Source of the DNA: Gemmiger formicilis | GTDB taxonomy: Bacteria; Bacillota; Clostridia; Oscillospirales; Ruminococcaceae | Reading direction: 5' to 3' | Length of the DNA stretch: 54,907 nt | Assembly: GCF_016900095.1 (NCBI RefSeq) | Contig: NZ_JACJJP010000023.1 | Coordinates: 1-54,907, forward strand | In this document: piece after piece, positions 2,058 through 25,138 of the stretch | How positions within the stretch are numbered: the stretch's first letter is position 1 | Layout of the letters: each line of letters opens with the position of its first letter | Translations under genes and position numbers: made by a program | Notes under the pieces: model-generated | What the model was told of the DNA's origin: nothing | Databases searched by the model: none | The model's input: only the letters and a program-made list of their open reading frames with translations

Positions 2058-2080
2058 CTTCGGGCCAACATGGCCCGAGG
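2058..2080. repeat. ICE palindrome copy 1
   Basis: Arms CTTCGGGCCA / TGGCCCGAGG with spacer ACA. It begins directly after the stop of the gene at 2081-2284. Confidence 0.9.
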
Positions 2081-2284
2081 TCAATAGTCGCCATGATAAT
2101 ATTTCTGCTCGGCCTCGTTGATGGTATGGATGTCAAAGGCTTCGTGAAGCTGCCGTACCACACGGCGAATATCCTCATGGGAGAAGCCACAGTCCTGCAT
2201 TGCCATAATCACATAACCACGGCAGGCGTCGTTGCTCCATGCGTCCGGTTCCAATCCCGGAATGGACGGATAAGTTTTCTTCAT
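2081..2284 (-). CDS. Small conserved ICE protein, unknown function
   Basis: A 67-residue soluble protein with a predicted helical centre (FSHEDIRRVVRQLHEAFD). The ribosome site AGGAG precedes the ATG by 6 bases. The stop codon abuts an ICE palindrome. I recognise no named domain; similar short ORFs occur between the sigma-like factor and recombinase of related ICEs. Confidence 0.7.
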   Translation of the reverse strand: MKKTYPSIPGLEPDAWSNDACRGYVIMAMQDCGFSHEDIRRVVRQLHEAFDIHTINEAEQKYYHGDY

Positions 2285-2701
2285 AAGGTTCTCCTGTTCA
2301 TAAAAGTATGGGGCCCCGCCGGAAAGGTCGCTCTATCATCAGACAGAATAGCGGCGAGGCCCCACAGGTCAAAAGTGCTTTTCAGATAGACCGGACGGAC
2401 GGCTGGCGTTCCGCCCCATAGCATTTCAGCTCTCCCCATTCTGATGGCAAGGCGATCTCATTACCTGCGACGGCTCACGGTTCGCAACACCGCTGCACGC
2501 TCGGATTGTGACTAATCGCAAGTATCCGGGATTTTGTGTTTTATCCGGCGGACCCGCCAAGGCCCGCCTGCGGCATGGGCCTTATCGCTCCCTCTATCCT
2601 CTGACAATAGAGATCATGGCGGGCCTGTCACTGGACACAAGCACCCTTCGTATCCGGGTATCTTTTTATTCAGTTTTCAAGCTACGTAAGGCTTGTCCGA
2701 A
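2285..2701. other. Intergenic region with hairpins, no gene seen
   Basis: No convincing coding frame was found. TGGGGCCCCGCC (2313-2324) pairs with GGCGAGGCCCCA (2351-2362) at 11 of 12 positions. A second GC-rich inverted repeat (GGCCCGCC / GGCGGGCC) lies near 2560-2620. These may terminate transcription or act in DNA processing. Confidence 0.5.
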
Positions 2702-2724
2702 CTTCGGGCCAATGTGGCCCGGGG
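2702..2724. repeat. ICE palindrome copy 2
   Basis: Arms CTTCGGGCCA / TGGCCCGGGG with spacer ATG. The right arm is degraded by one base. It lies 52 bases after the stop of the sigma-like gene. Confidence 0.85.
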
Positions 2725-2776
2725 CTTTGACTGCCTCTCATATACCATTTCATTTTTTGGTCTAAATCGGTACGCC

Positions 2777-3199
2777 TTACAGAATTTTTTTCAAAATTTT
2801 TTCCAGGCTCCTCAGACCGCGCTCAATGGCGACCCGCACGACTTTTTCATGGACGCCTTCTGCCCGGGCAATATCCTTTTTAGTCATGCCGAGAATGAAA
2901 TGGGCGTAAATACGTTTCGCCTGCTTATCCGGCAGACGGGAAATGGCGGCATGGAGTTCCTGCATAGTCACTTTGCGCTCATACAGCTCATGCGGAGAAA
3001 GAGCGACGAAAAGAGCCTCATGCTCAATGCCGTCATTCCGGTCGAGGGAGTAGTATGCCTTGTGCCGGTATGTACGTAGACGGTAAGCCGCCTCTTTGCG
3101 GTCGAACTCGGAAAACAGATCGGCCACTTCGTCAGTTACTTCAACAAAACAATCCTGTGTATAATGAGGGTAAATATCCCGCAGATTGATAACTTTCAT
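2777..3199 (-). CDS. Sigma-70-like regulatory protein of the ICE
   Basis: This 140-residue protein resembles the small sigma-factor-like proteins of Tn916/Tn1549-type elements. The C-terminal third (about 85-138) has a sigma region-4-like helix-turn-helix: LPDKQAKRIYAHFILGMTKK followed by DIARAEGVHEKVVRVAIERG. It probably controls ICE transcription. The ATG at 3199 is preceded by GGAGG at 5 bases; that GGAGG is buried in a perfect 12-bp hairpin (3205-3248), so translation is probably regulated. ICE palindromes flank it on both sides. Confidence 0.8.
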   Translation of the reverse strand: MKVINLRDIYPHYTQDCFVEVTDEVADLFSEFDRKEAAYRLRTYRHKAYYSLDRNDGIEHEALFVALSPHELYERKVTMQELHAAISRLPDKQAKRIYAHFILGMTKKDIARAEGVHEKVVRVAIERGLRSLEKILKKIL

Positions 3200-3204
3200 A
3201 AATA

Positions 3205-3248
3205 CCTCCGTTTCGGGTGTTCGGGTTGACGGGTAGCCGAAACGGAGG
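3205..3248 (-). promoter_or_regulatory. Hairpin sequestering the ribosome site of the sigma-like gene
   Basis: CCTCCGTTTCGG (3205-3216) and CCGAAACGGAGG (3237-3248) are perfect complements with a 20-base loop. On the minus-strand mRNA the 3' arm ends with the GGAGG placed 5 bases before the ATG. Confidence 0.75.
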
Positions 3249-3274
3249 CGGTGGTGAGCGACACCGGGGCATGA

Positions 3275-3297
3275 CCTCGGGCCAACATGGCCCGAAG
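3275..3297. repeat. ICE palindrome copy 3
   Basis: Arms CCTCGGGCCA / TGGCCCGAAG with spacer ACA, in the 5' leader of the sigma-like gene. Confidence 0.9.
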
Positions 3298-3314
3298 TTA
3301 TCCCAAGAGAACGC

Positions 3315-3349
3315 AAAAGCGCCTGCGCGGCATAAGGCCACGCAAGCGC
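3315..3349 (-). terminator. Intrinsic terminator
   Basis: Three-segment stem GCGC, TGCG, GGC with matching right segments (one-base bulges), followed on the minus strand by TTTTGCG. It lies upstream of the sigma-like gene leader. Confidence 0.6.
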
Positions 3350-3695
3350 ACGAAATTATATATTCATTTATGTACTGCCAAACTGCACATCCGCCGCCGG
3401 ACTGGTCCTGTTCGGGGAACGAGCTTTTTTTGACAGGTTAGGGGGATGGAAAAAGAAAAAGGACACAGCGATACCTCCCGGACACCGCCGTATCCTTAAA
3501 AAAGGGCGACTTTAACACACCCCCCGCAATCTCATTTTTTGAAAAGAAAACGACGGCTTGAAATTTGTTATTTCAAAACCGCCGTAAGGCTACTGTATTT
3601 TGTTTTGGCGCATGAATACCCAGCCGCCGAAACAACGGTTTTTTTATTATCCCGTTGGGCGGCTATTCTGTCCATTTATTAGCTATGAGTAAAAA
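3350..3695. other. Intergenic region between ICE backbone and cargo, no gene seen
   Basis: It contains T-rich stretches and two hairpins: one at about 3554-3587 (ACGGC with ATTTC complements), and a strong one at 3631-3664 where GCCGCC..CAACGG pairs with CCGTTGGGCGGC. The latter follows the hydrolase stop and probably ends that transcript. Confidence 0.5.
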
Positions 3696-4439
3696 TTATC
3701 GTTCTATTTTTACTTCCTTGAATTTGGTTTGTACTTTGCCGGACTGAATGTTATTATCAATCCAGCTATATAAAATATCTAATTGCGGTTGGGTATGGAA
3801 CCAGTGTTCCCCCGGCTCCCATATTGTTAATTCGCAATGATAAGTTTTTGCAAATGCCTCTACGGTATCACGATCTGTAAGATGGTCTTTTCCTGCATAT
3901 AAAATTTTTGTTGGGACTTTCCATTGAGTGACCTGATTATTTGCTGCATACTCCCAATATTTCCACGAAAGCGTTTGTCCGAAAGATGTAGAAATAGTTT
4001 GCTCGTGTCTAAGTCTTTCTTGTGAAACATTAGCCCACGACATCATCTTTTGAATAAGCAATTTCATATCAAGAACAGGGGAAACAAATAAACTCTTTTC
4101 CAGACTTTCATTTTTGAAACTTAGCATACTGAACCATGCACCAATACTATTTGCAAATAGTGCAATATCTGCCCAGCGGTTTTTGACATATTGCATCACA
4201 GTTAGAAGCTCTGGCACAATAGTCCACGGATTAAATAAATCATGTTCCTCTTTTCTTTCGCCATGCTCGGGTAGATCAATACTTAATACTTGCCATCCAT
4301 AACGATTTGCAATAGACGCAAATGCTTCTGCTTCTTCTTTATATCCTCCTTGACCGTGTATATAAAGATAGACTTTAGAGGATGTATCCCCCCATATAAT
4401 TGCAGGAATGTTTTTGATATTCAAATGTTCATCAATCAT
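3696..4439 (-). CDS. Alpha/beta hydrolase (ICE cargo)
   Basis: The 247 residues show an alpha/beta hydrolase fold: oxyanion motif HGQGG (about 29-33), nucleophile region FANSIGAWF, Asp in AGKDHLTD and His in GEHWFH. The nucleophile elbow reads N-S-I-G-A, so the first Gly of the usual GxSxG is absent. Substrate unknown; it could be an esterase acting on a small molecule or drug. The gene is AT-rich compared with the ICE backbone and diverges from a TetR-family gene, a typical arrangement for an inducible detoxification gene. The start at 4439 has AGAGG upstream. Confidence 0.75.
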   Translation of the reverse strand: MIDEHLNIKNIPAIIWGDTSSKVYLYIHGQGGYKEEAEAFASIANRYGWQVLSIDLPEHGERKEEHDLFNPWTIVPELLTVMQYVKNRWADIALFANSIGAWFSMLSFKNESLEKSLFVSPVLDMKLLIQKMMSWANVSQERLRHEQTISTSFGQTLSWKYWEYAANNQVTQWKVPTKILYAGKDHLTDRDTVEAFAKTYHCELTIWEPGEHWFHTQPQLDILYSWIDNNIQSGKVQTKFKEVKIER

Positions 4440-4559
4440 TGTAGGAACCTCTCTGCCAAAAAAAACTATTGTAGTTAATTATAATGCTAATCTAATTAGT
4501 ATTTTATAAAATAGCAAGCTGCTTGTCAAGTGCCACATGGAAAGAACCTAACTTTATTA

Positions 4560-4596
4560 TTGACCACACTAACTCTATTAGCTAAAATAGTAATAG
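4560..4596 (+). promoter_or_regulatory. Promoter and candidate operator of the TetR gene
   Basis: -35 TTGACC (4560-4565) and -10 TAAAAT (4583-4588) are spaced by 17 bases. An inverted repeat CTATTA (4575-4580) / TAATAG (4591-4596) with a 10-base centre covers the -10, as an autoregulatory TetR site would. A perfect palindrome TATTTTATAAAATA lies at about 4500-4513, nearer the hydrolase. Confidence 0.6.
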
Positions 4597-4621
4597 ACAA
4601 TGTAAAAATGAGAGGTGTACT

Positions 4622-5197
4622 ATGCGTGTATCAAAATCGTTGGTAATAGAAACGGCTTCACAAATAGCAGACGAGCGAGGGTTAAATAGCCTATCTCTAA
4701 AGGTAGTTGCAGAAAAATTGAATGTACGAACACCATCCCTTTATAATCATATCGAAAGTCTTGACGATCTACTTCGGGAAGTAGCGCACAAAGGGATGCG
4801 CTCCATGAATGAGCAAATGGCACAGGCAGCCATTGGAAAGTCTGGCGATACTGCATTGAAAGGCGTCAGCGTTGAATATTTGAATTTTATTATTGAACAC
4901 CCTGGGGTATATGAAACTATTCAGTGGGCTACATGGCATGGTACGGATGAAACCGCCCAAATATTTGGAAACTATATTAAGATTTTATCAACGATAATTT
5001 CGTCATACAATTTTCCATCTGAAAGCACAAATGAAATATTGAACCTTTTTACCGGATTTCTTCATGGCTTTACCACTTTACAAGTGCGCTATGCCTTTTC
5101 TGATCCGCAGAAAGTCCGAAATGAGCTCTGTAATGCTGTTGATACGATAATGTTAGGCGTTCACCAAAAATATGAAAATCGCATCGAAAACGAGTAA
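4622..5197 (+). CDS. TetR/AcrR-family regulator with WHG-type C-terminal domain
   Basis: The 191 residues begin with a TetR helix-turn-helix (about 8-50: LSLKVVAEKLNVRTPSLYNH). The ligand domain contains TWHGTDE, as in the WHG subfamily. It diverges from the hydrolase and probably represses both genes until a ligand binds. GAGAGG lies 6 bases before the ATG. Like the hydrolase it is AT-rich, so the two likely arrived together. Confidence 0.85.
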   Translation: MRVSKSLVIETASQIADERGLNSLSLKVVAEKLNVRTPSLYNHIESLDDLLREVAHKGMRSMNEQMAQAAIGKSGDTALKGVSVEYLNFIIEHPGVYETIQWATWHGTDETAQIFGNYIKILSTIISSYNFPSESTNEILNLFTGFLHGFTTLQVRYAFSDPQKVRNELCNAVDTIMLGVHQKYENRIENE

Positions 5198-5768: not shown

Positions 5769-5791
5769 CTTCGGGCCAACATGGCCCGAAG
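5769..5791. repeat. ICE palindrome copy 4
   Basis: Perfect arms CTTCGGGCCA / TGGCCCGAAG with spacer ACA, 34 bases after the relaxase stop. Confidence 0.92.
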
Positions 5792-7293: not shown

Positions 7294-7316
7294 CTTCGGG
7301 CCAACATGGCCCGAGG
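7294..7316. repeat. ICE palindrome copy 5
   Basis: Arms CTTCGGGCCA / TGGCCCGAGG with spacer ACA, four bases after the stop of the CD1845-like gene. Confidence 0.9.
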
Positions 7317-7320: not shown

Positions 7321-7614
7321 TTAACTTGCCAGAAACCGATACAGAGCGGATTTGCCTCCGTCCAGCGCCCAAAGCAGAGAACCAGCCGCCGCTTGCAGCC
7401 CATACGGCGAAAGGAGGAAGGCGAGGAACAGAAATACAATCCCGCCGATGGGGGTCGGCGTGAAAAAGAGGGCGATACCCAGCACCGCCAGGATCACGGA
7501 GGCAATCGTCAGCAGGAAGGCGCAAATATCAAACAAAAACACCAGCAGAGCCGCCAGAAGGGACAGCGCCAGAGCGAAGGGCGCGACTAATATTTTCAGC
7601 AGTATCTTCATCAT
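7321..7614 (-). CDS. CD1845-like small membrane protein
   Basis: A 97-residue protein with about three hydrophobic segments (residues 5-30, 33-55, 57-75), resembling the CD1845 family of ICE proteins. Function is unknown; its position before the relaxase suggests a mobilisation role. ATG 7614 has GGAGG five bases upstream; a second ATG follows at once. The promoter at 7643-7671 would start transcription about 20 bases before it. Confidence 0.7.
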   Translation of the reverse strand: MMKILLKILVAPFALALSLLAALLVFLFDICAFLLTIASVILAVLGIALFFTPTPIGGIVFLFLAFLLSPYGLQAAAGSLLWALDGGKSALYRFLAS

Positions 7615-7704: not shown

Positions 7705-7727
7705 CTTCGGGTCAACATGGCCCGAAG
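7705..7727. repeat. ICE palindrome copy 6
   Basis: Arms CTTCGGGTCA / TGGCCCGAAG, one mismatch, spacer ACA. Confidence 0.88.
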
Positions 7728-7784: not shown

Positions 7785-8126
7785 TTACTTTGCCACCAGC
7801 TCGGAGAGCTCCCGCAGCACCTTTGACACCTCGCCCCACAGCTTTTCATAGTCCCGCTTCAATCCGTCGATTTCCTCCGGGTACACGCCGTAGGTATGCG
7901 CGTGTACGGCGACCTGATTGAGATTATTGGAACAGCGCCTTTGCAGAGAGATCAATTCTTTTATGGGCGCAAGGTCAACGTGCAGGATATACCCGTTCAG
8001 AGCCATCTTCCGCACATAAGCCCCGGCATTGGAAATACCCGCTTCGGCCATCCGCTCATGGATGGCCGCCAGCTCGTCCGGCGTCACCATGACGTGAAGA
8101 TGGACATTCCGCTTGCGGTTCTCCAT
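7785..8126 (-). CDS. mobC: MobC-like relaxosome protein
   Basis: The 113 residues match plasmid/ICE MobC accessory proteins: an N-terminal ribbon-helix-helix-like part (VHLHVMVTPDELAAIHERMA) and a C-terminal helix ending in WGEVSKVLRELSELV. MobC helps the relaxase open oriT. Its start overlaps the stop of the preceding small gene (TGATG), so they are translationally coupled. The gene is followed by a terminator, and the relaxase operon restarts from its own promoter. Confidence 0.85.
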   Translation of the reverse strand: MENRKRNVHLHVMVTPDELAAIHERMAEAGISNAGAYVRKMALNGYILHVDLAPIKELISLQRRCSNNLNQVAVHAHTYGVYPEEIDGLKRDYEKLWGEVSKVLRELSELVAK

Positions 8127-8930: not shown

Positions 8931-8953
8931 CCTCGGGCCAACATGGCCCGAAG
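8931..8953. repeat. ICE palindrome copy 7
   Basis: Arms CCTCGGGCCA / TGGCCCGAAG, spacer ACA, just upstream of the ribosome site at 8912-8925. Confidence 0.9.
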
Positions 8954-9445: not shown

Positions 9446-9637
9446 TCAGGACTTCGGGCCACGATGGCCCGAAGGGCGGGGCTCCACGATCAGCGCCCGG
9501 AATTTCTTCCGACACTGTTTTTTCCTGCCTTTGCACTCCTTGTAGTAGCGGCATCCGGTACAAGGGTCATCGCTGCCCCGGCCCGGCCACGGCACTTCCT
9601 TCATCATTCGCTCAAAGGGGCTGTTGGTAAAATTCAC
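9446..9637 (-). CDS. Small cysteine-rich ICE protein ending in palindrome-encoded peptide
   Basis: 63 residues with the cluster CTGCRYYKECKGRKKQC, probably a metal-binding knuckle. GTG 9637 is chosen because AGGAGG lies seven bases upstream and it overlaps the previous stop (GTGA). The last residues, PSGHRGPKS, are encoded by ICE palindrome copy 8, so the repeat forms the protein's end. Confidence 0.65.
   Translation of the reverse strand: MNFTNSPFERMMKEVPWPGRGSDDPCTGCRYYKECKGRKKQCRKKFRALIVEPRPSGHRGPKS
9452..9474. repeat. ICE palindrome copy 8 (inside a gene)
   Basis: Perfect arms, spacer CGA. Read on the minus strand as SGHRGPK at the C-terminus of the gene at 9446-9637. Confidence 0.92.
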
Positions 9638-10308
9638 TGGCGGGCCTCCTGTTCTTCCGTGTCCTCGTCCCACGGAGGGGTATCGTCATCCTCGGGTTCC
9701 TCTGCGATTTCCTCCGGCCCTTCGTCCTCATATTCGCAGTAGTCGTCCTCCAGGTCCGGCGCTTCGTGCTTCGGCTTGTAAATCTTGAAGTAATAACCGG
9801 CACCGCCGCCGATCAGCACCACCGCCCCGATCAGGAGCAGCGAAAGAAGCGGGCTGTCTGTTTTTTCGGCCTCGGGTTCGGGTTCCGGCTCGGTCACTTC
9901 CTCCACGGGTTCGGTGGGCTCCGGCTCCGGTTCGGGGGTCACTTCCTCGGCTGGTTCCTCGCCCTGTTCGGCAAGAGGCAGAAGGTCATCCACGGTTACA
10001 GCGTTGAGGAAATAGACGTTTTCGCTGGTTTTCTGCTTGTCGATCACCAGATAGAAAACACTCTCGTCTGCGGTGGTAATGGTGTAGAACTCTTTGCCGT
10101 CCTCGTTGGTGGCGTTGTCCACCACCGTTCCCGTTCCATCCGGGGTAAAGGGGTTCTGGGTTTCCGGCTCCGCCTCGGTTTCCACCGGGGCGGGAGTGGC
10201 CTCGGGCTGCGGCTCATTGCTCTGGGCGTAAGCCGGGACCGTAAAGATCAGGCAACACAAAAGGCTGGCAGTCATCACCGCCAGCCTGCGAAATTTAGTT
10301 TTCTTCAT
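9634..10308 (-). CDS. CD1107 / DUF4366-like membrane protein
   Basis: About 224 residues: an N-terminal signal sequence (LAVMTASLLCCLIFTVPAYA), an extracellular domain, a long Glu/Pro repeat stretch, a membrane segment (LLSLLLIGAVVLIGGGAGYY) and an acidic cytoplasmic tail. This layout fits the CD1107 family of conjugation-associated surface proteins. It likely sits in the cell envelope with the transfer channel. ATG 10308 has GGAGG upstream and overlaps the end of the DUF4315 gene by 14 bases. Confidence 0.8.
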   Translation of the reverse strand: MKKTKFRRLAVMTASLLCCLIFTVPAYAQSNEPQPEATPAPVETEAEPETQNPFTPDGTGTVVDNATNEDGKEFYTITTADESVFYLVIDKQKTSENVYFLNAVTVDDLLPLAEQGEEPAEEVTPEPEPEPTEPVEEVTEPEPEPEAEKTDSPLLSLLLIGAVVLIGGGAGYYFKIYKPKHEAPDLEDDYCEYEDEGPEEIAEEPEDDDTPPWDEDTEEQEARQ

Positions 10309-10561
10309 GGGCCGTGTCCTCCTTCTCGGGTGCCTCCGGCTTCGGGCCATTGTGGCCCGAAGCGGCAAGGCTGTTTTTGGGGTCGTTCAGAAATGCCATC
10401 AGCTCGGCGGGGGTCAGTTTGAGAGAGCGCACCGCCTGCACAATCTGGCTGTTTTCTTCCTCCTGTTTCTGCTTTTCCAGTTCCCGGATTTTGGCCTGCC
10501 ACTCGGCGGCCTTCTCCCGGGCCTTTTCCAGCTCCTTATCGAGCTTGTCGATCTTGTTCAT
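10295..10561 (-). CDS. DUF4315 small coiled-coil protein
   Basis: 88 residues starting MNKIDKLDKELEKAREKAAE, a heptad-type helix, then SLKLTPAELMAFL, typical of DUF4315. The C-terminal part contains ASGHNGPK, encoded by ICE palindrome copy 9, placed between the conserved domain and the acidic tail. Function unknown; always found beside CD1107/CD1108-type genes. Confidence 0.8.
   Translation of the reverse strand: MNKIDKLDKELEKAREKAAEWQAKIRELEKQKQEEENSQIVQAVRSLKLTPAELMAFLNDPKNSLAASGHNGPKPEAPEKEDTAHEEN
10340..10362. repeat. ICE palindrome copy 9 (inside a gene)
   Basis: Perfect arms, spacer TTG; encodes SGHNGPK in the DUF4315 gene. Confidence 0.92.
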
Positions 10562-10583: not shown

Positions 10584-12485
10584 TCACAAGCGCCCGAAGG
10601 CGTAGAAATGTGTCTGCCAGTAGCTTGAATTGATATTTGCGTATTGGATGGGAGAACCACAATGGAGCATCATCCCGTCGCCCACATAAATCCCCACATG
10701 GGACACAGGGCCGGGGCTGTCATAGGTTCCCGTGAAAAAGATAATGTCGCCCGGCTTTGCCTCGGAGGGGGAAATGATGGCACACTGGTTGTAAATGCCC
10801 TGCGCCGTGGTACGGGGCAGGTTGTGGACGCCGCTGGCCGTGTACACCCAGCAGACAAAGCCCGAGCAGTCAAAGGAGGTGGACGGGCTGGAGCCGCCCC
10901 ACACATAAGGCCAGCCGATGTACTTTGTCGCCTCCGCCATGAGCGCCGCAAAGGCCGGATCATCCAGCGCCTCGCCGGGTATCTCATAGCTGGGGCCGGT
11001 GTCCTCGCCGCCGGTATAAATCCCTTCCCACAAATAGGGCTTGTTGCCTTTGAGCTGCTGCATGACGGTGTAGATTTCCCGCTGCTGTTCATCCAGCCTC
11101 GGCAGGATTACGGCAGGCAGCGTTTTGTTTGTGAGGGTCACATTGAGGATGTAATACTCATAGGGGACTTCCTCGGTGGTGGTTTCTCCGGTTTCCGGGT
11201 CGGTGCTGGTTTCGGTGCGGTAGCGTATCTCGATTTCCTCCGTCAAGGTCAGCTCATACTGCGCCTCGAAGATCTCCCGCAGCTCGTCCTGCACCTGCTC
11301 CCGGAAATAAACATGGTACTTTGCCGAGAGATAGGACGCCAACTCATAGGGGTTGTGACCGATCTCGTCCACGGAATAGCGGTACTCGTCATAGCCGGGA
11401 TGGGTGCTTTCGATGTTCGCTACCGTCTGCGCCAGTTCGTTTTCCAGCGCCGTGTAGTCCTCGTCCACGCCAAGCAGGTCGGCGTCCTCGGAAGCATAGG
11501 AAGTGCCGGACACCGCATTGGCAAGACCGCTGCCAAGTGTGGGAAAGATGGAACTTACCGCCGACAGGATATAGCAGACCAGCAGCAACAGCACCAAAAC
11601 CAAAACCGCCACGGGATGACGGGTCACAAACTGCGCTGCCCGCCGGGTCACATTCCCCGAAGCGGCAGCGGCTTTCTTTGCGGCCTTTGCGCTCTGTTTT
11701 GCCGCCGCCTTTGCCTCTTTGGAATACCGGCGTTTTAGTTTCCACTTCTGCTGTATCCGGGACAGCGGATTGCTGGCAAGCTCCGGGTGTTCGGCGGCCA
11801 TCTTCTGAAAATCCACATTGGCCCGGGCTTTTATGTCCTTCCGTTCCCACTTTGCCACCTTCCGGGCCGGGTGTTCCCGCCAGCGCCGTTTTGCATACCG
11901 GGTCAGTTTCCGGGTCCCGGCCTCAGCGGTCAGCTCGGATTTATGCGCTCCTTCCACGCCCACATTTTCATGCTCGACTTCGTGGATTTTGTTGTGGAGA
12001 TAAAACCATGCCTCGGTGCGGGCTCCCCGGACGGCTTTCTTTGCAAGCCCCGGCGGCTTCTGCGCCGCCCGTTTCGCCTCGACCTTATCCAGCTTCTCCC
12101 GGGCCTTTCCCAGCTTTTCCCCGGCGCGCTCCGCTTTGGCCTGCGCCTTCTGGTACTTGTCCTTTTTGCTCCCGGCTTTCTCGGCGGAGCCCTCCGGCTC
12201 CTGCGCCTTGCTGGTATCCTGCGGACCGCCCCTGTCATCCTCCTGCCTCATGCGGTCAGAAGGGCGGGCTTTCCGGCTGTCCTCTTGAAACTTGCCGCTT
12301 TTGGACTTCGGGCCATCATGGCCCGAAGTGCCGGTCTGCCCGGTATCCTCGTCCTCAAACCGCAGGCGTCGGGACGGTGCGGGGGAAGGCCCTTCCCGGT
12401 CAGCCGGTCCGGGGCGAGTGCTCCCGGTATCCTCCGGCGGCCCCGGCCTTTGAAAATTCCGTTTATCCGGTTTCTTTCCGATGAT
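10584..12485 (-). CDS. CD1108-like transfer protein with NlpC/P60 (C40) peptidase domain
   Basis: The C-terminal ~130 residues form an NlpC/P60 cell-wall hydrolase with Cys in TSFDCSGF and His in PVSHVGIYVG, as in Tn916 Orf14. It should open peptidoglycan for the transfer channel. A long basic, coiled N-terminal region and one membrane segment (VAVLVLVLLLLVCYILSAV) precede it. The first ATG is at 12251, but it has no good ribosome site, and the frame is open for 78 more codons up to an AGGAGG near 12487. The only codons at usable spacing there are ATC (12485 or 12482), a rare start. The extension includes palindrome copy 10, encoding TSGHDGPK. The true start is uncertain. Confidence 0.8.
   Translation of the reverse strand: MIGKKPDKRNFQRPGPPEDTGSTRPGPADREGPSPAPSRRLRFEDEDTGQTGTSGHDGPKSKSGKFQEDSRKARPSDRMRQEDDRGGPQDTSKAQEPEGSAEKAGSKKDKYQKAQAKAERAGEKLGKAREKLDKVEAKRAAQKPPGLAKKAVRGARTEAWFYLHNKIHEVEHENVGVEGAHKSELTAEAGTRKLTRYAKRRWREHPARKVAKWERKDIKARANVDFQKMAAEHPELASNPLSRIQQKWKLKRRYSKEAKAAAKQSAKAAKKAAAASGNVTRRAAQFVTRHPVAVLVLVLLLLVCYILSAVSSIFPTLGSGLANAVSGTSYASEDADLLGVDEDYTALENELAQTVANIESTHPGYDEYRYSVDEIGHNPYELASYLSAKYHVYFREQVQDELREIFEAQYELTLTEEIEIRYRTETSTDPETGETTTEEVPYEYYILNVTLTNKTLPAVILPRLDEQQREIYTVMQQLKGNKPYLWEGIYTGGEDTGPSYEIPGEALDDPAFAALMAEATKYIGWPYVWGGSSPSTSFDCSGFVCWVYTASGVHNLPRTTAQGIYNQCAIISPSEAKPGDIIFFTGTYDSPGPVSHVGIYVGDGMMLHCGSPIQYANINSSYWQTHFYAFGRL
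12306..12328. repeat. ICE palindrome copy 10 (inside the probable N-terminal coding region)
   Basis: Perfect arms, spacer TCA; reads SGHDGPK in the CD1108-like frame. Confidence 0.9.
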
Positions 12486-12503
12486 GTATCCCTCCTTTCC
12501 GAA

Positions 12504-12526
12504 CCTCGGGCCAGCATGGCCCGAAG
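12504..12526. repeat. ICE palindrome copy 11
   Basis: Arms CCTCGGGCCA / TGGCCCGAAG, spacer GCA, four bases after the virB4 stop. Confidence 0.9.
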
Positions 12527-15285: not shown

Positions 15286-15308
15286 CTTCGGGCCAACATG
15301 GCCCGAAG
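15286..15308. repeat. ICE palindrome copy 12
   Basis: Perfect arms, spacer ACA, directly after the stop at 15309-15311. Confidence 0.92.
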
Positions 15309-15929
15309 CTACCTTGCGGCCTCTTTGGCCGGGGCTGTGCTGCGGGCGGCTTCGGCGGCCTCCCGTCCGCTCTGCCTTGCCCGCCAGTATTCGGGATTGT
15401 ATTGCCGGATGGACTGATTGAGGTTTTCTTCAAACCGCTCTTTGTCCTTGATACGGTCGGGGATCTTCCAGAGCTTTTTGTCCAGCAGCTCCCGGAGCAC
15501 CACACTTTCCTGTGCGTCCTCCTCATAGCAGATATAGCCCTTATCCTTGAAACCGCATTTTTTCGCCGCCGGAGAGAGGACGGCGGCCACCTCGTTTGCA
15601 ACCATCGTTCCGCCGTGGCTGGCGGTGGATACCAAAAACACGCCCGGGCAGAGAACTTCACAGCTCTGCACCTCTCCCCACGGGGAGGTCCGGGGCGCAT
15701 GGAACATCCCGCCCGTCCGGCCTCGGTCCGCCTGCATGAGCGCCGCCTTTTCCAAGATGGCCTTCAGCTCCGGGGAAAAGTAGGCGTATTCCCGCAGGAC
15801 ACGGGCGGCGTCCCCGCCGCAGGCGTTCATCAACAGGGTATAGGCGTCGCTGTCCGCTTTGGTACAGCGGCCCAGCAGCTTGCCGTCATAGTAGCAGGCC
15901 GCGTCATAGCCCGTTCGTTTGCGTGGCAT
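15309..15929 (-). CDS. DUF7007-like conserved ICE protein
   Basis: 206 residues. The central segment SPWGEVQSCEVLCPGVFLVS and TASHGGTMVANEVAAVLSPA resembles proteins annotated DUF7007 in similar ICEs. The family assignment is from memory and moderate. Start 15929 has GGAGG upstream; a longer frame would read through palindrome 13 without a ribosome site. Function unknown; it lies in the channel operon. Confidence 0.6.
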   Translation of the reverse strand: MPRKRTGYDAACYYDGKLLGRCTKADSDAYTLLMNACGGDAARVLREYAYFSPELKAILEKAALMQADRGRTGGMFHAPRTSPWGEVQSCEVLCPGVFLVSTASHGGTMVANEVAAVLSPAAKKCGFKDKGYICYEEDAQESVVLRELLDKKLWKIPDRIKDKERFEENLNQSIRQYNPEYWRARQSGREAAEAARSTAPAKEAAR

Positions 15930-15948: not shown

Positions 15949-15971
15949 CTTCGGGCCAGCATGGCCCGAGG
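15949..15971. repeat. ICE palindrome copy 13
   Basis: Arms CTTCGGGCCA / TGGCCCGAGG, spacer GCA, touching the stop of the SpoVG-like gene. Confidence 0.9.
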
Positions 15972-16613
15972 TCAACGCTCCGCACCACGGCTGGGCTTTT
16001 CCTTCGGGGGCCGTTCCGCTTTTGCCTGTTCGGCAGCCGCTTTCCCGGCCTTGAGCTGTTCGCTGATGGACGCACGCCCGGCAGAGCCGCGCTCCGCCAT
16101 CTGTTCCAGCTTTACTTCATAGGCTTGCAGAACAGCGGTGTTGAGCTGTTCCCGGAACTCCTTCGTGACGGGATAGGCCATATCCCGATAGCCGCCCTTG
16201 CCGTCCGGCTGGCTGGGCATCCCCACGAAAAGGCCCTTGCTGCCCTGCACGATTTTCAGATTTTCCACCACAAAGCAGTCGTTGAATTTCACGCTGGCAA
16301 AGCCCATCAGGTTTTTCACAGGTTCGATGACCCGCACGCTTACATCCAGCTTCAACGGTGCGGCGGGGGTGGCGTCCGCAACCTTTTCCTGCATGGTTTC
16401 CTCCTTTCCGGCGGGAACAAGGTTCCCGTCCTTGTAGTCATAGCCTTCCGCCCGGAGTGCCGCCAGCGTGTCCGCCGATACGCAGCCGGACAGTTTCAGA
16501 TCGGTTTCCACCATAAAGCGCATGGTGTCTGTTTTAGAAAATTCCTCGGGGAGCTTTCCGTAGAAAGCCGGGTGCGGCTGTCCGTCCGCGCCCTGTTTGT
16601 AGCGCCGGGGCAT
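15972..16613 (-). CDS. SpoVG-like protein with N-terminal extension
   Basis: 213 residues. Residues about 88-165 (LDVSVRVIEPVKNLMGFASV to VTKEFREQLNTAVLQAYE) match SpoVG, a small RNA/DNA-binding regulator. Ordinary SpoVG is about 90-100 residues. An N-terminal 73-residue part and a basic tail are extra. ATG 16613 has GGAGG, but the internal ATG at 16394 has an equally strong GGAGG six bases upstream. Two products, long and short, are therefore possible. Confidence 0.75.
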   Translation of the reverse strand: MPRRYKQGADGQPHPAFYGKLPEEFSKTDTMRFMVETDLKLSGCVSADTLAALRAEGYDYKDGNLVPAGKEETMQEKVADATPAAPLKLDVSVRVIEPVKNLMGFASVKFNDCFVVENLKIVQGSKGLFVGMPSQPDGKGGYRDMAYPVTKEFREQLNTAVLQAYEVKLEQMAERGSAGRASISEQLKAGKAAAEQAKAERPPKEKPSRGAER

Positions 16614-16628: not shown

Positions 16629-16651
16629 CTTCGGGCCAACATGGCCCGAAG
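16629..16651. repeat. ICE palindrome copy 14
   Basis: Perfect arms, spacer ACA, four bases after the TrbL stop. Confidence 0.92.
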
Positions 16652-16655: not shown

Positions 16656-17522
16656 TTAGTGGCAGCCGAAGATGGATTTTGCAAGGCTGCCCGTTTTGAA
16701 CAGGGTAAAACACAGCAGCACCGTATAGCCCACACAGCCCCAGATCGCCCCGATGGGGTCGCCGTCGGTGGCGATACTCTGGATAAGCACCGCATAAATG
16801 GCGACACAGACCAAAATCAGCAAGCCTTGAAAGCCTACCGCAAAGAGGGAACGGAAATAGTTCTGCCCCATGTGTCCGGTTTCCCGGTTGGGGACGGTGG
16901 CAAACGGGATGGGTGCCAAACTTGTGAGTAAGTAAATTTCAATCATACGGCCATATACGATAACGAAGATCACGATGTTTAAGGCAATCATGGTAAGTTG
17001 AATCAGGAATGACTGGAGCCAGAGGCCAAACAGGGGGCCTAACTCCATTTCCTCCAGCTCGGTCCGCAGACTGTCCATTACATCCGTTGTGATCTCTGTC
17101 CCGTTCTGGATAATGCCCGCCGATTGCTGGATGACGTGCTGGCTCACGTCAAAGACGGCCAGCACGATATTGAAGGTATTCGTCAGGATCATTACCGCCA
17201 CAAAGGTTTTGAACACCCACTTGAAAAACATCCATGTGTCAACGTCATGGAGGTTGTTGCGGTCAATGAGCATTTGTATCAGCTCATAGGTCATTACAAA
17301 AGTGAGGATGACCCCGGCGATTGGCAGAATGGCGGTTTCAGAGATTTGCCGTATCATGGAAAAGACCCCGGCGTTCCAGTCCGCCGGGGTCGTGCCTACC
17401 TGTGTGGCGATCTCGCCAACGCTCTGATTGACGTTATTGAAAAGGCCATCCAGATTTCCCATGATACCATCGACAAGCAAACCTTTGAGCCATTCAACGA
17501 TTGCGTCGATGATAAAGTCCAT
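16656..17522 (-). CDS. VirB6/TrbL-like channel membrane protein
   Basis: 288 residues with about six hydrophobic segments, e.g. AILPIAGVILTFVMTYELIQ and LIQLTMIALNIVIFVIVYG. It resembles the CD1112/TrbL channel component of Gram-positive type IV systems. It follows Maff2 and precedes the SpoVG-like gene in the transfer operon. Confidence 0.88.
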   Translation of the reverse strand: MDFIIDAIVEWLKGLLVDGIMGNLDGLFNNVNQSVGEIATQVGTTPADWNAGVFSMIRQISETAILPIAGVILTFVMTYELIQMLIDRNNLHDVDTWMFFKWVFKTFVAVMILTNTFNIVLAVFDVSQHVIQQSAGIIQNGTEITTDVMDSLRTELEEMELGPLFGLWLQSFLIQLTMIALNIVIFVIVYGRMIEIYLLTSLAPIPFATVPNRETGHMGQNYFRSLFAVGFQGLLILVCVAIYAVLIQSIATDGDPIGAIWGCVGYTVLLCFTLFKTGSLAKSIFGCH

Positions 17523-17841: not shown

Positions 17842-17864
17842 CTTCGGGCCATCATGGCCCGAAG
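17842..17864. repeat. ICE palindrome copy 15
   Basis: Perfect arms, spacer TCA, abutting the virD4 stop. Confidence 0.92.
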
Positions 17865-20222: not shown

Positions 20223-20245
20223 CCTCGGGCCAATGTGGCCCGAGG
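20223..20245. repeat. ICE palindrome copy 16
   Basis: Arms CCTCGGGCCA / TGGCCCGAGG (perfect complement with a compensating change), spacer ATG, one base after the stop at 20247. TTTTC follows on the minus strand. Confidence 0.92.
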
Positions 20246-20246: not shown

Positions 20247-21284
20247 TTACCGCTCGGCATCCCTGCCGGACGGAGCTTTCTTTTCCGGCTCCGTCTGGAC
20301 TTTTTCGCCCTGTTCCCGCATGGTCTGCAAGATAGAGGGCTTCTTTTGAAGCTGGGAGGGCTTTTCGCCGGACAGCGGCTTGATACATTCCAGACGGTCA
20401 GCCGCCCGGATGGCGTTGTCCGTGAGCTGCCGCTGCCATGCGCCCACGCTGGGAGCCCAGCGAAAGCCGTTGCTTTTCAGCTCGGCCCGGGTGTCCGCGT
20501 CAGGCTTTCCATCAAAGAACACCTGCAAGCGGTTGTCCTCCCGGTTCATTTCCACACGGCCCCCGTCAAACTCCCAGCCGGAAAACTCCCGCTGCGCCTG
20601 TTTGGAAAGCTGTTCGATACGGGCCTTTACCCGGCGGATCTCCGCGTTGTTGTTGGTAAGCTGGTAGCTTTCAAAGGGCCTCGGGTCGCTCCGCCAGCTT
20701 GACGCCATGCTGGCTTTCAGCTTTTCGATCTGGTCAGGCGACAGCAGCGCACAGCCGTCCAGCTTGCCATGCTTGCGGTAATAAGCGTTGACCTCCTTCA
20801 TAATGAGCTGGGAGCGTTCCAGCCCATCCAGCTTTTTCTGGAGCTTTTCAATGGCCGCCGGGTCATCGGCGCTGATACCGCCCATGCCGGTACTGCGTAT
20901 CTTATCCAGCAGCCCTTGAATATGCCGCCATTCCTCCATGTTGCTGTCCCGCGCCCGGTTCTGTTTTTCTTTCTTTCCCACCGGGAAATTGGAAGGCCCG
21001 GCGATCAGCACAGAAGGAACTCTTGTGTCAATGGCAAAGCCCTGGTTCATGTTTTCGGCCAGCTTGCGGGCGTAGGTGTCTAACAGATGGTCGATCTTCT
21101 CATGGTACATGGGGTCCACCCGGGATTTTTGCTGTTCGGCTATGGCTGCGGCCTTGTCTACCATTGCCCGGTATTCCGCCGTTGCGCTCCCTTCCTTATA
21201 GTCGGAAAAGCTGTTCATTTCCTTTGCCCGGCGGGCGGCCCCTTCATTGATGGGGTAATAGTTGATGGTATGCACCTCCTTCAT
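20247..21284 (-). CDS. Conserved ICE protein of the antirestriction region, unknown function
   Basis: About 345 residues. N-terminal part: TINYYPINEGAARRAKEMNS; C-terminal part: LQVFFDGKPDADTRAELKSN followed by GFRWAPSVGAWQR, a segment recurrent in large ICE accessory proteins. No catalytic motif recognised. The start is unclear: ATG 21284 lies just after palindrome 17 and has no good ribosome site, while the AAGGAGG nearby overlaps the first codons. Confidence 0.7.
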   Translation of the reverse strand: MKEVHTINYYPINEGAARRAKEMNSFSDYKEGSATAEYRAMVDKAAAIAEQQKSRVDPMYHEKIDHLLDTYARKLAENMNQGFAIDTRVPSVLIAGPSNFPVGKKEKQNRARDSNMEEWRHIQGLLDKIRSTGMGGISADDPAAIEKLQKKLDGLERSQLIMKEVNAYYRKHGKLDGCALLSPDQIEKLKASMASSWRSDPRPFESYQLTNNNAEIRRVKARIEQLSKQAQREFSGWEFDGGRVEMNREDNRLQVFFDGKPDADTRAELKSNGFRWAPSVGAWQRQLTDNAIRAADRLECIKPLSGEKPSQLQKKPSILQTMREQGEKVQTEPEKKAPSGRDAER

Positions 21285-21285
21285 G

Positions 21286-21308
21286 CTTCGGGCCATGTTG
21301 GCCCGAAG
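21286..21308. repeat. ICE palindrome copy 17
   Basis: Perfect arms, spacer TGT, two bases after the ardA stop and directly before the next start. Confidence 0.92.
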
Positions 21309-21310
21309 TC

Positions 21311-22024: not shown

Positions 22025-22028
22025 GGGC

Positions 22029-23114
22029 TCAATCCTCCTTTCCGTCCCTGTCTGCCAGCACTTCATAAATCCCGGCCATGATGTAATCGGCGCAAGGGAG
22101 AGCAATCGCATTTCCCAGCGCCTTGTAGCGTTGCAGAGGCCGGATTTCCTCGCCGTCCGCCCCGTACTTTGTCCAGCCCTCCGGCAGCCCCATCAGCCGC
22201 TCACTTTCCGTTTCCGTCAAGAAGCGGATACAGCCGCCGTCCGGGTCGCCCTCGTACCAAAAGGCGAAGGGCGTCACGTCGCTGGCTAAAAGAGTGGGAA
22301 AAGGGTCAGTTGGTAATCCGAAGCTGTTTCGGAAGGCGGTTTCTTCCTGCCTTTTTGCCGCTCCCCGCATACGGAAGCATTGAAAGGGGTGGATGACTGG
22401 TATTTGCCGCCCTGTTTCAAAAGAAGATGTTCGATCTCCTTCGGCGGCGGTCCGCCCGCCCTCTCGGCAAGGCGGAGGAAGTGGGAGCATTGGACGGGGC
22501 TTAAATAGTATGTCGGCGGCACGTTTGCCTCTAAAATCCGCCACGATGAAAATTCGCTGCCTTCGCGCCAGCCTTCGGGAGCCTGCCCAATACTGGGCGT
22601 CCATGAGCCGCCAGCACACATCAGGCGTTCCCCCTCGCACCATTCCGGCGTTTCCCCATCTTCCAGAAGGAGGCATTGGAACTTCGGTGTCCGAGAAGGC
22701 GGATAGGACGGCTCTAAAATCCATCCGGTCATTTGTAGAAAACGCTCCCATGACGTTTTCCCAAACAGCGATAGCTGGATATAGGTTATCAGTGGCATCC
22801 CTCATTTCCTGTATGATACGAAACGCCTGATAAAACAGGCTGGATTTTGCCCCGGCAAGGCCGGAGCGGTTGCCGATCAGAGAAAGGTTCTGACAGGGAG
22901 AGCCGAAGGTTATCACATGGACAGGCGGGATTTTTCCGCCGTCCACCTTCGTAATGTCCCCCAAGTGCGCCATATCGGGAAAGTGCCTTTTGGTTATGGA
23001 GATCGGCGCTTTTTCAATCTCGCTGGCCCACACCGGACGAATACCGCAGCGGGAGGCCGCCAGAGGGAAAACGCCTATCCCGTCAAAAAGGCTCCCCAGC
23101 TTAATGTCCGGCAT
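22029..23114 (-). CDS. C5-cytosine DNA methyltransferase
   Basis: 361 residues. Motif I LGSLFDGIGVFPLAA binds AdoMet, motif IV GSPCQNLS holds the catalytic Cys74, with ENV, RRQRIFIVADF (motif VIII) and YKALGNAIALPCADYI (motif X). No restriction nuclease gene is adjacent, so it is a solitary enzyme, probably protecting the ICE. Its site is unknown. Its start overlaps the upstream gene end by 14 bases. Confidence 0.92.
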   Translation of the reverse strand: MPDIKLGSLFDGIGVFPLAASRCGIRPVWASEIEKAPISITKRHFPDMAHLGDITKVDGGKIPPVHVITFGSPCQNLSLIGNRSGLAGAKSSLFYQAFRIIQEMRDATDNLYPAIAVWENVMGAFSTNDRMDFRAVLSAFSDTEVPMPPSGRWGNAGMVRGGTPDVCWRLMDAQYWAGSRRLARRQRIFIVADFRGKRAADILFKPRPMLPLPPPCREGGRTAAEGDRTSSFETGRQIPVIHPFQCFRMRGAAKRQEETAFRNSFGLPTDPFPTLLASDVTPFAFWYEGDPDGGCIRFLTETESERLMGLPEGWTKYGADGEEIRPLQRYKALGNAIALPCADYIMAGIYEVLADRDGKED

Positions 23115-23457
23115 GACCCGGGCCGCCGTGCCCCTTCACGGCAAGAACCCCGTCCAGCGTAGTAGCCGCGATACCCAGCCGCCCGGCAACCGCAATATCG
23201 TTTTTCACATCCTCGTCCACCGCACCGCCGCAGACGATCAGGGTATGAGAGCGCCGCAGCATATCCCGGCGCATATCAATCCCGGCCTTATGTTCCTCGG
23301 GAACGCTGTCATTCAAGAACAGCGGAAGATACAAAAGCGGGCAGATGGGGGAAAAGCCCGCCTCATAGGCAAGACGGCAGTAGTGGGCCGCCAGCTCCAT
23401 ATCAATATCCGGCTCACCGCTCCATGCGGCGGTCAGATAGGCCAAAGGTCGTTTCAT
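23101..23457 (-). CDS. DUF7768-like protein (nucleoside deoxyribosyltransferase-like fold)
   Basis: 118 residues beginning MKRPLAYLTAAWSGEPDIDM; the pattern of an early A-Y-x-x-x-A motif plus ADIL-like TLIVCGGAVDEDV resembles DUF7768 proteins of ICEs, distantly like nucleoside 2-deoxyribosyltransferases. Function uncertain. Start 23457 has GGAGG. Confidence 0.65.
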   Translation of the reverse strand: MKRPLAYLTAAWSGEPDIDMELAAHYCRLAYEAGFSPICPLLYLPLFLNDSVPEEHKAGIDMRRDMLRRSHTLIVCGGAVDEDVKNDIAVAGRLGIAATTLDGVLAVKGHGGPGHAGH

Positions 23458-23540
23458 TGGTTCAACCTCCATTTCTTTCTGATTTGCGGAAAGCAAGGTT
23501 TCGCCCAACCCCTCCGCCCCTTCCCCCGGGAAGGGGGACG

Positions 23541-23706
23541 GCTCTGGAGAATTTATATCCCCGTCGCTTGTCCGGGAAAAAGCATAACCGGGAGAAATCC
23601 GTCAAGGGTGCCTCTGGCACCGCCTGCGGCGGCGTTGCCCTTGACTGATTTTCCCGGCTATGCTACGGAATAACTGGCGACGGGGAATAATTTATATCTC
23701 CAGAGC
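23541..23706. repeat. 166-base imperfect inverted repeat
   Basis: GCTCTGGAG (23541-23549) pairs with CTCCAGAGC (23698-23706). Inside this, TTTATATCCCCGTCGC pairs with GCGACGGGGAATAA, and CCGTCAAGGG with CCCTTGACTG, up to a central GGTGCC / GGCACC. The whole block could fold into one long stem. It lies in the 300-base gap between the DUF7768-like and ParB-like genes. It may be a small non-autonomous element, a single-strand origin or a leader structure. Confidence 0.7.
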
Positions 23707-23734
23707 TTCGGGGCGCGGGGCAGCGCCCCGCAAT

Positions 23735-23757
23735 CCTCGGGCCATCTTGACCCGAAG
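23735..23757. repeat. ICE palindrome copy 18
   Basis: Arms CCTCGGGCCA / TGACCCGAAG (two mispairs), spacer TCT, seven bases after the parB stop. A hairpin GCGGGGC / GCCCCGC precedes it on the plus strand. Confidence 0.85.
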
Positions 23758-23764
23758 TTTCGGC

Positions 23765-25138
23765 TTACTTTTCCGGCTCGGTTTTCTTCTCCGGCTTTTC
23801 GTGTTCCTTCTGCTGGCCCTTCCAGTCGTCCAGCAGCTTGATGATCTGGTCCTTCATTTCCCTCGGCGTGGTTTCCTTGCCGAAGTATTTGCTCAGTTCC
23901 GCACCCGTCAGAATCACTTTGTCTACCTCCTTTTTGTCCTCCATCATAATGCCGTCGATCACATCCCCGTTGAGCAGCTTCTTTTCGTCCAGCTCCCGCA
24001 TACGCTTTGCCTGCGCCTGCGAAGGCGATGACTGCTGGCTGTCGATGGCGACGGCGATATAGTTCTGGTTCTTCTTGCCAATGTAGGAAAGCTCCACCGC
24101 CGTAGTGAAGCCCAGCTTTTTTTCGTCCATCAGCTTCATCAGGTCGGGGACCAGCTCATTCAGCCGGATATACCGCTGCACCTGCTTGACGGCCATCTTG
24201 TTCCGCTCGGCCACGATCTCGTTGGAGCGTTTGCCTGCGTCCTTCGGGTCAATCTGGCCCGAAGTGCGGGAGCCCTGGTGCTTGATAGCCTCAAGCTGCA
24301 TTTTCAGAGCTTTGGCCCGCTCGCTGGGGAGGATTTCTTCGCGCTGGTTCAGATTGTCCTCCACCATCTGCGTGATGGCTTCATCGTCCGTCAGGTTGCG
24401 GACGATACAGGGCATATCCGCATATCCGGCAAGCTCGCTGGCCTTCTGGCGGCGGTGGCCGGACACGATCTCATAGCCGCCATCCTCACGGGGACGGACG
24501 ATAGCGGGCTGGGTAACGCCCTTGTCCTTGACGCTGGACACCATAGCCCGCATTTCTTCATCGTCCCGGACCTCAAAGGGATGGTTTTTGAAGGCGTGGA
24601 GCTCGTTCAGCTTGATATATACGATCTGTTCCTCGCCACGGCGGGGAGCCTCCTTCGGCCCCTCGGGTTCCTTCGGAGCGGGAGCAGCCTGCACCGTAGG
24701 AGCCGCTTTTTTCTCCGGTTTCTCTTTGGGGGGCTTTTCCGGCTTTTTCTGTGCGGGGGCTTTGGGCTTCGGAGCGGCGGCCTTGTCCTTATCCGCTTTC
24801 GGAGGACGGCCCCGGCGCTTCGGCTGCTCGGGTTCTTTGGGCTTTTCCTGTTTTCCTTCGGCCTTTTTCGGAGCCTCTGGCTGCTTTTCCGGTTTCTCCG
24901 TTTTTGCCGGGGCAGGCTTTTCCCCGCCGGAAGCTGCCGCCCGTTCCTCGGCTTTCTTTCCTTTCATAATTTCAGCGAAGTCATAGACGGACACCTGCGG
25001 ACTCTTTGCCTGCTGTTCCGTCTTTTTTTCGTCCTCCGGGGGAGTAGGCGTTTTCTCCGGCTCGGGCGGAGTTTCCTTGCCCGGCCCGGTATCTGTTACC
25101 GTCTGCTCCGGCATTTTCGTGGTTTTATCATCTGCCAT
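23765..25138 (-). CDS. ParB/Spo0J-family protein with long charged N-terminus
   Basis: About 457 residues. The first ~170 are Lys/Glu/Pro-rich and probably disordered. A ParB N-terminal domain follows (about 172-265: VYIKLNELHAFKNHPF, IVSGHRRQKASELAGY), then a helix-turn-helix region (KQVQRYIRLNELVPDLMKLM). It is the first gene of the long transcript and may regulate or partition the ICE. Palindrome copy 19 lies in the coding region as TSGQIDPK. Start 25138 is preferred (AGGAGG nine bases upstream); ATG 25144 is too close. Confidence 0.85.
   Translation of the reverse strand: MADDKTTKMPEQTVTDTGPGKETPPEPEKTPTPPEDEKKTEQQAKSPQVSVYDFAEIMKGKKAEERAAASGGEKPAPAKTEKPEKQPEAPKKAEGKQEKPKEPEQPKRRGRPPKADKDKAAAPKPKAPAQKKPEKPPKEKPEKKAAPTVQAAPAPKEPEGPKEAPRRGEEQIVYIKLNELHAFKNHPFEVRDDEEMRAMVSSVKDKGVTQPAIVRPREDGGYEIVSGHRRQKASELAGYADMPCIVRNLTDDEAITQMVEDNLNQREEILPSERAKALKMQLEAIKHQGSRTSGQIDPKDAGKRSNEIVAERNKMAVKQVQRYIRLNELVPDLMKLMDEKKLGFTTAVELSYIGKKNQNYIAVAIDSQQSSPSQAQAKRMRELDEKKLLNGDVIDGIMMEDKKEVDKVILTGAELSKYFGKETTPREMKDQIIKLLDDWKGQQKEHEKPEKKTEPEK
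24242..24264. repeat. ICE palindrome copy 19 (inside the ParB-like gene)
   Basis: Arms CTTCGGGTCA / TGGCCCGAAG with one mismatch, spacer ATC; read as SGQIDPK. Confidence 0.8.

Follow-up and report, generated by a model that had tools for sequence, protein, structure and literature searches.

A dispersed 23-bp palindrome in an integrative and conjugative element of Gemmiger formicilis is a predicted binding site of the element's own ParB-like protein

Analysis of a 54,907-nucleotide stretch of Gemmiger formicilis DNA (assembly GCF_016900095.1, contig NZ_JACJJP010000023.1, positions 1 to 54,907; hereafter the window) identified 19 copies of a 23-bp palindrome dispersed through an integrative and conjugative element (ICE). 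Each copy is predicted to be a parS- or operator-like site for a dimer of the ParB-like protein encoded by the ICE itself, a reading to which we assign a probability of about 0.87. Own-ParB specificity, the presence of a site inside the parB gene, the dispersal of copies confined to the element and the failure to find a ParA nearby are each supported by computation.

A scan of the window allowing up to three mismatches to the pattern CTTCGGGYCA-N3-TGRCCCGAAG recovered 19 matches, all located between positions 2058 and 24264, the same count and span that had been reported in a first-pass annotation made from the letters of the window. Shuffled versions of the window (n=100) contained a mean of 0.04 matches and at most 1. 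The near-restriction of the motif to the ICE was likewise upheld, with only three further matches at the same tolerance in the rest of the organism's own genome (3,257,360 bases, 98 contigs), two at the end of contig C27 (zero and two mismatches) and one in contig C5 (three mismatches). According to gene coordinates, 10 of the 19 copies begin 0-7 nucleotides past a stop codon, in keeping with the earlier estimate of about half, and the previously highlighted compensated copy does have both arms altered (CCTCGGG/CCCGAGG) with its pairing kept. Another five copies are situated in gaps, whilst the other four fall within coding frames, share one reading phase and encode SGHxGPK or SGQIDPK (Table 1). 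These copies inside genes had passed unremarked in the first-pass annotation, and were key to the interpretation.

One of the four lies within the parB-like gene found at one end of the palindrome-bearing stretch. The encoded protein consists of a low-complexity N-terminal extension, a ParB CTPase-fold domain, a helix-turn-helix and a C-terminal region, and was recognized by Pfam ParB_N (2.6e-19) and, above cut-off, by the NCBIfam ParB/RepB/Spo0J domain. Its AlphaFold model, with a mean predicted local distance difference test score (pLDDT) of 83, matched ParB, Noc and KorB folds, including 8qa9 (KorB) and 7nfu and 6y93 (Noc), and contained helices at residues 307-314 and 319-330 (renumbered). 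An alignment of 65 ParB sequences demonstrated that G63, R65, R66 and R102 are invariant and N98 nearly so, residues which we take to be the GxxR and NxxR motifs of the cytidine triphosphate (CTP) pocket. The palindrome within this gene corresponds to residues 294-301 (TSGQIDPK), in the linker between ParB_N and the helix-turn-helix.

A search of 295 genomes of the order with the window ParB found some match in 288 of them, many presumably to chromosomal ParBs, and the stretches around the best matches were scanned for N10-N3-N10 palindromes with an inner CA...TG. A further 80 named loci were added, out of at least 585 relatives matched. From 154 open reading frame hits a total of 114 distinct ParBs were retained, with 12 lacking the anchor motif left uncounted and the rest being duplicates or too short. 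It was found that most homologous parB genes hold an internal palindrome, the arms of which differ between genes: at least eight paired bases were present in the linker region of 92 of the 114 genes, representing 39 different arm pentamers. The in-gene site occupied reading frame 0 in 90 of these 92, the frame 1 sites of L107 and L110 looking like chance occurrences that nonetheless entered both the counts and the covariation tables. When 49 parB genes were aligned, a single codon position averaged 9.1 of 10 paired bases across the 43 genes with a residue there, 40 of which had eight pairs or more; the next-best position reached 5.1 pairs, and all 917 positions had a mean of 2.48 (standard deviation 0.77). 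Pairing within the in-gene sites averaged 9.46, versus 5.06 when the same peptides were recoded by shuffling synonymous codons, and a perfect 10/10 palindrome occurred at the linker in 56 of the 114 genes and elsewhere in the gene in none.

Among the 22 parB genes without an in-gene site, 19 had a palindrome of the same design within approximately 80 nucleotides past the stop codon, so that only three of the 114 (L109, L113 and L114) had no site in parB or shortly past its stop. L091 and L092 lack the linker residues in which the site would be encoded, the protein on either side still aligning, and have a site past the stop, a pattern which suggests that the linker segment matters as DNA. The in-gene palindrome was also encountered in parB genes from plasmid and phage records. 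The site of an Enterococcus faecalis plasmid record (L167) and that of a Streptococcus suis phage record (L177) are identical (CCTCGTCACAAGTTGTGACGAAG), and this sharing across two host genera perhaps reflects recent exchange. A single palindrome conserved among relatives had also been considered; its distribution was patchy (23 of 150 genomes), and this candidate was replaced once each parB was seen to have its own palindrome. The single-copy sites did not emerge when palindromes were counted de novo by exact 8-mer arms.

The relationship between arm sequence and protein sequence was assessed for the 111 ParBs with a site, by calculating the mutual information of each arm base with each protein column against shuffled nulls and with sequence weights. 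Summed over arm positions 4-8, and with site-encoded residues excluded, the top columns were 320, 306, 319, 308 and 323, and the sixth, column 414, had half the value of column 320. Considered singly, position 5 scored highest with R306 and N308, position 6 with K320, N308 and V319, and positions 7 and 8 with K320 and V319, followed by E406 and Q323 (position 7) or Q323 and A366 (position 8). At position 9, where there is little variation, E351 and R324 tied, ahead of Y354 and R327. The underlying base-residue counts are chemically sensible: at position 5, G with Arg306 (48/53) and C with Glu306 (8/9); at position 7, G with Lys or Arg320 (54/54) and C with Asn, Asp or Ser320 (34/40); at position 8, G with Asp320 (16/17) and A with Lys320 (20/24); and at position 9, A with Asn324 (5/5) and C with Arg324 (105/105). 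For protein pairs of less than 50% background identity, the inner triplet was common to 27 of the 32 pairs with the same residues at 319/320, versus 32 of the 796 with different residues, and at 50-60% identity the respective figures were 7 of 12 and 31 of 594. Control column pairs displayed an average of 6% triplet sharing and a maximum of 39%.

When applied to 11 sequences that were fetched later, rules taken from the first set of sequences gave the correct base in 27 of 27 predictions, namely 6, 7, 4 and 10 at positions 5, 7, 8 and 9, respectively. The later set was made up of 16 of 40 listed hits (9 of 25 from plasmids, 7 of 15 from phages), picked by eye from the top; 12 of the 16 passed the in-gene threshold automatically, and since no rule applied to any residue of one of these (L170), 11 were scored. 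The thirteenth in-gene site of this set (L166, 9/10) was missed by the anchor and found by hand, L173 had a downstream site (8/10), and L169 and L171 reached 7/10 in the gene. These records are partly dependent, in that L167/L177 and L174/L176 share sites, and the site of L165 was already in the first set. The counterparts of residues 319 and 324 in the alignment with Thermus Spo0J are the Arg and Asn of its GKAR....N stretch, through which a match made by eye places 319 opposite R173 and 324 opposite N178 of Caulobacter ParB, described as a specificity residue and a contact residue, respectively (PMC7383237). Taken together, the covariation suggests that the sequence of the palindrome fits the specificity of the helix-turn-helix of the protein. 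The element also contains genes for a relaxase, a methylase and a recombinase, proteins of kinds that bind DNA, any of which, or some other ICE protein, might be imagined to recognize the repeat. The concentration of covariation in the helix-turn-helix of ParB and the occurrence of the palindrome inside parB genes of plasmid and phage records argue against such a site, which we judge to be highly improbable.

In each element examined, the palindrome set fits the resident ParB, as judged from sequence. For instance, the element at L057 encodes a diverged ParB (42% identical over the full length) and harbours 12 palindromes with CTTCTGGACA arms, one in the 5' part of parB and 11 at 10 junctions, every one of them a junction that carries a palindrome in the window as well (gap-weighted P 0.013). 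In three further junction comparisons, two of them involving the window's own motif, 5/5, 8/8 and 7/7 junctions were shared (P 0.50, 0.027 and 0.15, respectively). A large number of almost identical copies, with few outside one element, might also be expected of a functionless small palindrome spreading within the ICE, in the manner of repetitive extragenic palindromic sequences. That the arm sequences agree with the specificity inferred for the resident ParB, that whole sets change together between elements and that the in-gene site so consistently keeps its frame all speak against this explanation, and it appears very unlikely.

Site number differed between two types of ParB. In loci of at least 10 kb, long ParBs were accompanied by three or more sites in 17 of 24 cases, and by up to 19, whilst short ParBs had exactly one site in 56 of 57; no scrambled half-sites occurred in the copy-number loci. 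The two types were distinguished by stop-to-stop frame length (430 amino acids), which overstates protein length, and L039 (440 amino acids), which looks like the short type with 5' read-through, was counted as long. Using one ParA query in tblastn, no match was found 1.0-2.5 kb upstream of any of 26 long ParBs, nor anywhere in 10 multi-site stretches, and the cognate ParA next to parB that defines ParABS was thus not found for the long-ParB loci; a ParA was present upstream of 44 of the 59 short ParBs. Of 32 long ParBs, 24 contain in their N-terminal part the motif [RK]GRP, which we take to be an AT-hook and which occurs as KRRGRPPK in the window protein. The ParA-binding motif LG[RK]G[LI] was absent from all 32 long and all 82 short ParBs, and so was uninformative. 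A ParB fold with its site, and the ParA genes of the short relatives, would be compatible with centromere-like sites for segregation or maintenance of the excised or replicating ICE circle, similar to ParABS and with a ParA contributed by the host or another element. The ParA searches at the long-ParB loci and the dispersal of the sites over 22 kb, unclustered, run counter to this, and we consider such a function doubtful, if still worthy of some weight.

Several observations weigh against the palindromes being sites of the ICE's own ParB. Palindromes of at least eight pairs occurred elsewhere in 45 of the 114 parB genes, such that the threshold alone proves little; the weight for the in-gene site rests on position, frame and perfect pairing. 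The sequences used for covariation are related (111, with an effective number of 57), and the pairs are non-independent. Columns outside the helix-turn-helix also scored, including A366 and D397 at position 8, E351 and Y354 at position 9 and several at position 2, and position 8 in the window is C or T alongside K320, though A is commoner. Of the correct predictions, 10 of 27 concerned the hardly varying position 9 and 17 concerned positions 5, 7 and 8, and the helix-turn-helix alignment with Thermus Spo0J is weak (domain E-value 1.1). Junction conservation is in part due to gap size, and is weak alone once gaps are weighted. Finally, an excess of G.U over A.C at arm position 2 (33 versus 15) is unexplained.

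This last observation bears on intercistronic RNA hairpins that would stabilize, process or punctuate the transfer mRNA, which the first-pass annotation had proposed alongside binding by an ICE protein and a small repetitive element spreading within the ICE. Every copy could fold into a tri-loop hairpin with a stem as long as 10 bp, and both the 10 copies shortly past a stop codon and the doubly compensated copy are in line with such hairpins. Unpaired positions, read in the mRNA sense (134 sites, 16 loci), comprised 48 G.U, 38 A.C and 16 others; outside position 2 there were 15 G.U versus 23 A.C. This wobble direction gave the RNA stem no clear support, and the sites within coding sequence in the same linker region of 92 of 114 parB genes and the tracking of the recognition helix by arm sequence speak against it. 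It was set aside mainly on account of the in-gene sites and the covariation, and we now hold it to be most improbable, although the G.U lean at position 2 may by itself leave room for an RNA role. The suggestion of binding by an ICE protein stands, with the ParB-like protein as the probable partner.

If each palindrome is a site for the ICE's own ParB, the helix-turn-helix would read the arms through residue 306 at position 5, residues 319, 320 and 323 at positions 6-8 and residue 324 at position 9. A ParB dimer bound at each palindrome would close on CTP and slide, a clamp to which the conserved CTP-motif residues and the fold point, and 19 loading sites with a mean spacing of approximately 1.2 kb would coat the transfer module. 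A solitary ParB with an AT-hook and no ParA would then control transfer-gene expression, as KorB, BisD or NAH7 ParB do. As no ParA was found and an AT-hook has been added, regulation of transfer genes is the likeliest output, at slightly less than even odds, whilst compaction or anti-silencing is unlikely. We would give an even chance to a broader proposal, that clostridial mobile elements constitute a natural collection of many ParB-site pairs, each distinct from the others, in which the site mostly lies inside the parB gene and the pairs obey a simple readable code; one branch would have lost ParA, gained AT-hooks and multiplied its site, giving rise to a self-addressed chromatin or silencing protein, specific to the element, by which the ICE is told apart from host DNA.

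Table 1. Palindromes, parB features and arm types. Placement classes follow gene coordinates.
Feature	Position	Strand	Placement	Remarks
parB-like gene, 459 aa	23765..25144	-		One end of palindrome-bearing stretch
AT-hook-like KRRGRPPK	24797..24820	-		N-terminal extension; [RK]GRP motif
Helix-turn-helix	24161..24229	-		Covarying R306, N308, V319, K320, Q323, R324 (mutual information, count tables)
Palindrome	24242..24264	.	Coding frame	Inside parB, codons of TSGQIDPK
Palindrome	23735..23757	.	0-7 nt past stop	7 nt past parB stop
Palindrome	21286..21308	.	0-7 nt past stop	3' of ArdA gene
Palindrome	20223..20245	.	0-7 nt past stop	3' of ORF 20247-21296; both arms changed, still paired
Palindrome	17842..17864	.	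0-7 nt past stop	Immediately 3' of VirD4-type gene
Palindrome	16629..16651	.	0-7 nt past stop	3' of ORF 16656-17522
Palindrome	15949..15971	.	0-7 nt past stop	Immediately 3' of ORF 15972-16613
Palindrome	15286..15308	.	0-7 nt past stop	Immediately 3' of ORF ending at 15309
Palindrome	12504..12526	.	0-7 nt past stop	3' of TraG/VirB4-type gene
Palindrome	12306..12328	.	Coding frame	NlpC/P60 open frame, 5' of first listed start codon (12251)
Palindrome	10340..10362	.	Coding frame	Within small ORF 10295-10561
Palindrome	9452..9474	.	Coding frame	Final codons of ORF 9446-9673
Palindrome	8931..8953	.	Gap	Intergenic
Palindrome	7705..7727	.	Gap	Intergenic, 3' of ORF 7785-8126
Palindrome	7294..7316	.	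0-7 nt past stop	3' of ORF ending at 7321, 5' of relaxase
Palindrome	5769..5791	.	Gap	3' of relaxase gene
Palindrome	3275..3297	.	Gap	5' of ORF 2777-3256
Palindrome	2702..2724	.	Gap	3' of ORF 2777-3256
Palindrome	2058..2080	.	0-7 nt past stop	Immediately 3' of ORF 2081-2284
Arm types by ParB				Window CTTCGGGCCA; L057 type CTTCTGGACA; L061 type CTTCGGCCCA
aa, amino acids; nt, nucleotides; ORF, open reading frame.

Pfam searches with ten open reading frames of the window returned serine recombinase, MobA-type relaxase, NlpC/P60, TraG-type, VirD4-type, ArdA, cytosine methylase and ParB_N families, along with one AraC-type protein outside the palindrome stretch and one frame without a family. The further labels PrgI, TrbL, Maff2, MobC, PcfB, LPD, sigma and the DUF numbers, assigned by eye or remembered, are our assumption beyond Pfam, and elements of this type are presumably Tn1549-like. 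The NlpC/P60 frame (12251-12490) stays open far 5' of its first listed start, where there is a good ribosome site with no ATG, GTG or TTG behind it, and the start of this gene is uncertain. The region 3696-5197 is free of palindromes and has a hydrolase-like frame and, on the other strand, a TetR-like frame (both named by eye); its G+C content is lower (0.43 over 2500-5000), and it is perhaps late-arriving cargo.

Other arrangements of such palindromes were observed beyond the window. Near the end of contig C27, three 23-bp palindromes are packed into 117 bp (C27:33251-33367, equivalent to L064:2451-2567), outside any parB; they have the common core GGCCAA-n-TTGGCC with three different outer arms, and the middle one is flanked by A and T runs, resembling a two-way terminator. 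In L128 (9139-12329) and L061 (17097-19478), a short ParB with one in-gene site is followed by a DUF6017/HTH_36 protein, and in L128 a ParA is directly upstream of the ParB. The chromosome of one relative (G054, contig C1) carries variants of the form CTTCGGGACA-N3-TGTCCCGAAG at three far-apart spots (171551, 873686 and 1564175), which could be separate ParB-bearing elements.

The location of a parS within parB, in Bacillus subtilis, and dispersed operators of the ParB type, for KorB, are already known. A site fixed in parB with freely changing sequence, the code that it appears to follow and its multiplication in a ParA-less branch are apparently new; no account of parS sites of these elements was found among the titles and abstract openings listed, a scope that excludes subscription papers and preprints. 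The findings assign a likely target to a ParB that is widespread in ICEs of gut Firmicutes, offer a testable amino-acid-to-base code for ParB specificity drawn from dozens of natural pairs, and hint at a way in which the transfer region may be marked and controlled by the ICE that carries it. They also make the assignment of site to protein simple, the palindrome being read in, or just past, the parB gene.

The ICE system resembles ParB-parS, that is, Spo0J and the chromosomal and plasmid ParABS systems, in its ParB_N CTPase fold, helix-turn-helix and palindromic site. It differs in the odd-spaced 23-bp form of the site, the many arm sequences among paralogues, the 19 dispersed copies and the failure to find a ParA nearby. 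Noc, a further relative, has many dispersed sites and, to our knowledge, no ParA. It is described as a ParB paralogue with its own binding sites, NBS, in a study that dissected the two specificity classes of ParB and Noc (PMC7383237), and as membrane-binding (PMC8429893). The ICE ParB is similar to Noc in having its own site and in fold, whereas Noc is chromosomal and the ICE ParB bears an AT-hook extension. A site within the gene itself also has a counterpart in parS-359, which is reported to lie within the B. subtilis parB gene (PMC4442127).

Closer to the conjugative setting is KorB of the conjugative plasmid RK2, a member of the ParB family whose operators lie near several of the plasmid's promoters and which is described as a CTP clamp capable of silencing plasmid genes from a distance (PMC11790492). 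With KorB and its OB operators the ICE shares dispersed sites on a conjugative element and the fold match, but about half of the ICE sites stand behind stop codons inside the transfer region. BisD of ICEclc is presented as a ParB-domain activator of transfer-competence genes (PMC7423338) and as a CTP-using regulator (PMC12704722), and NAH7 ParB as a ParB-domain protein that activates conjugation genes (PMC12421886). Both are, like the ICE ParB, ParB-domain proteins of mobile elements, but they originate from Pseudomonas, and BisD acts together with BisC. By analogy, KorB, BisD and NAH7 ParB are precedents, of either sign, for regulation by such a protein.

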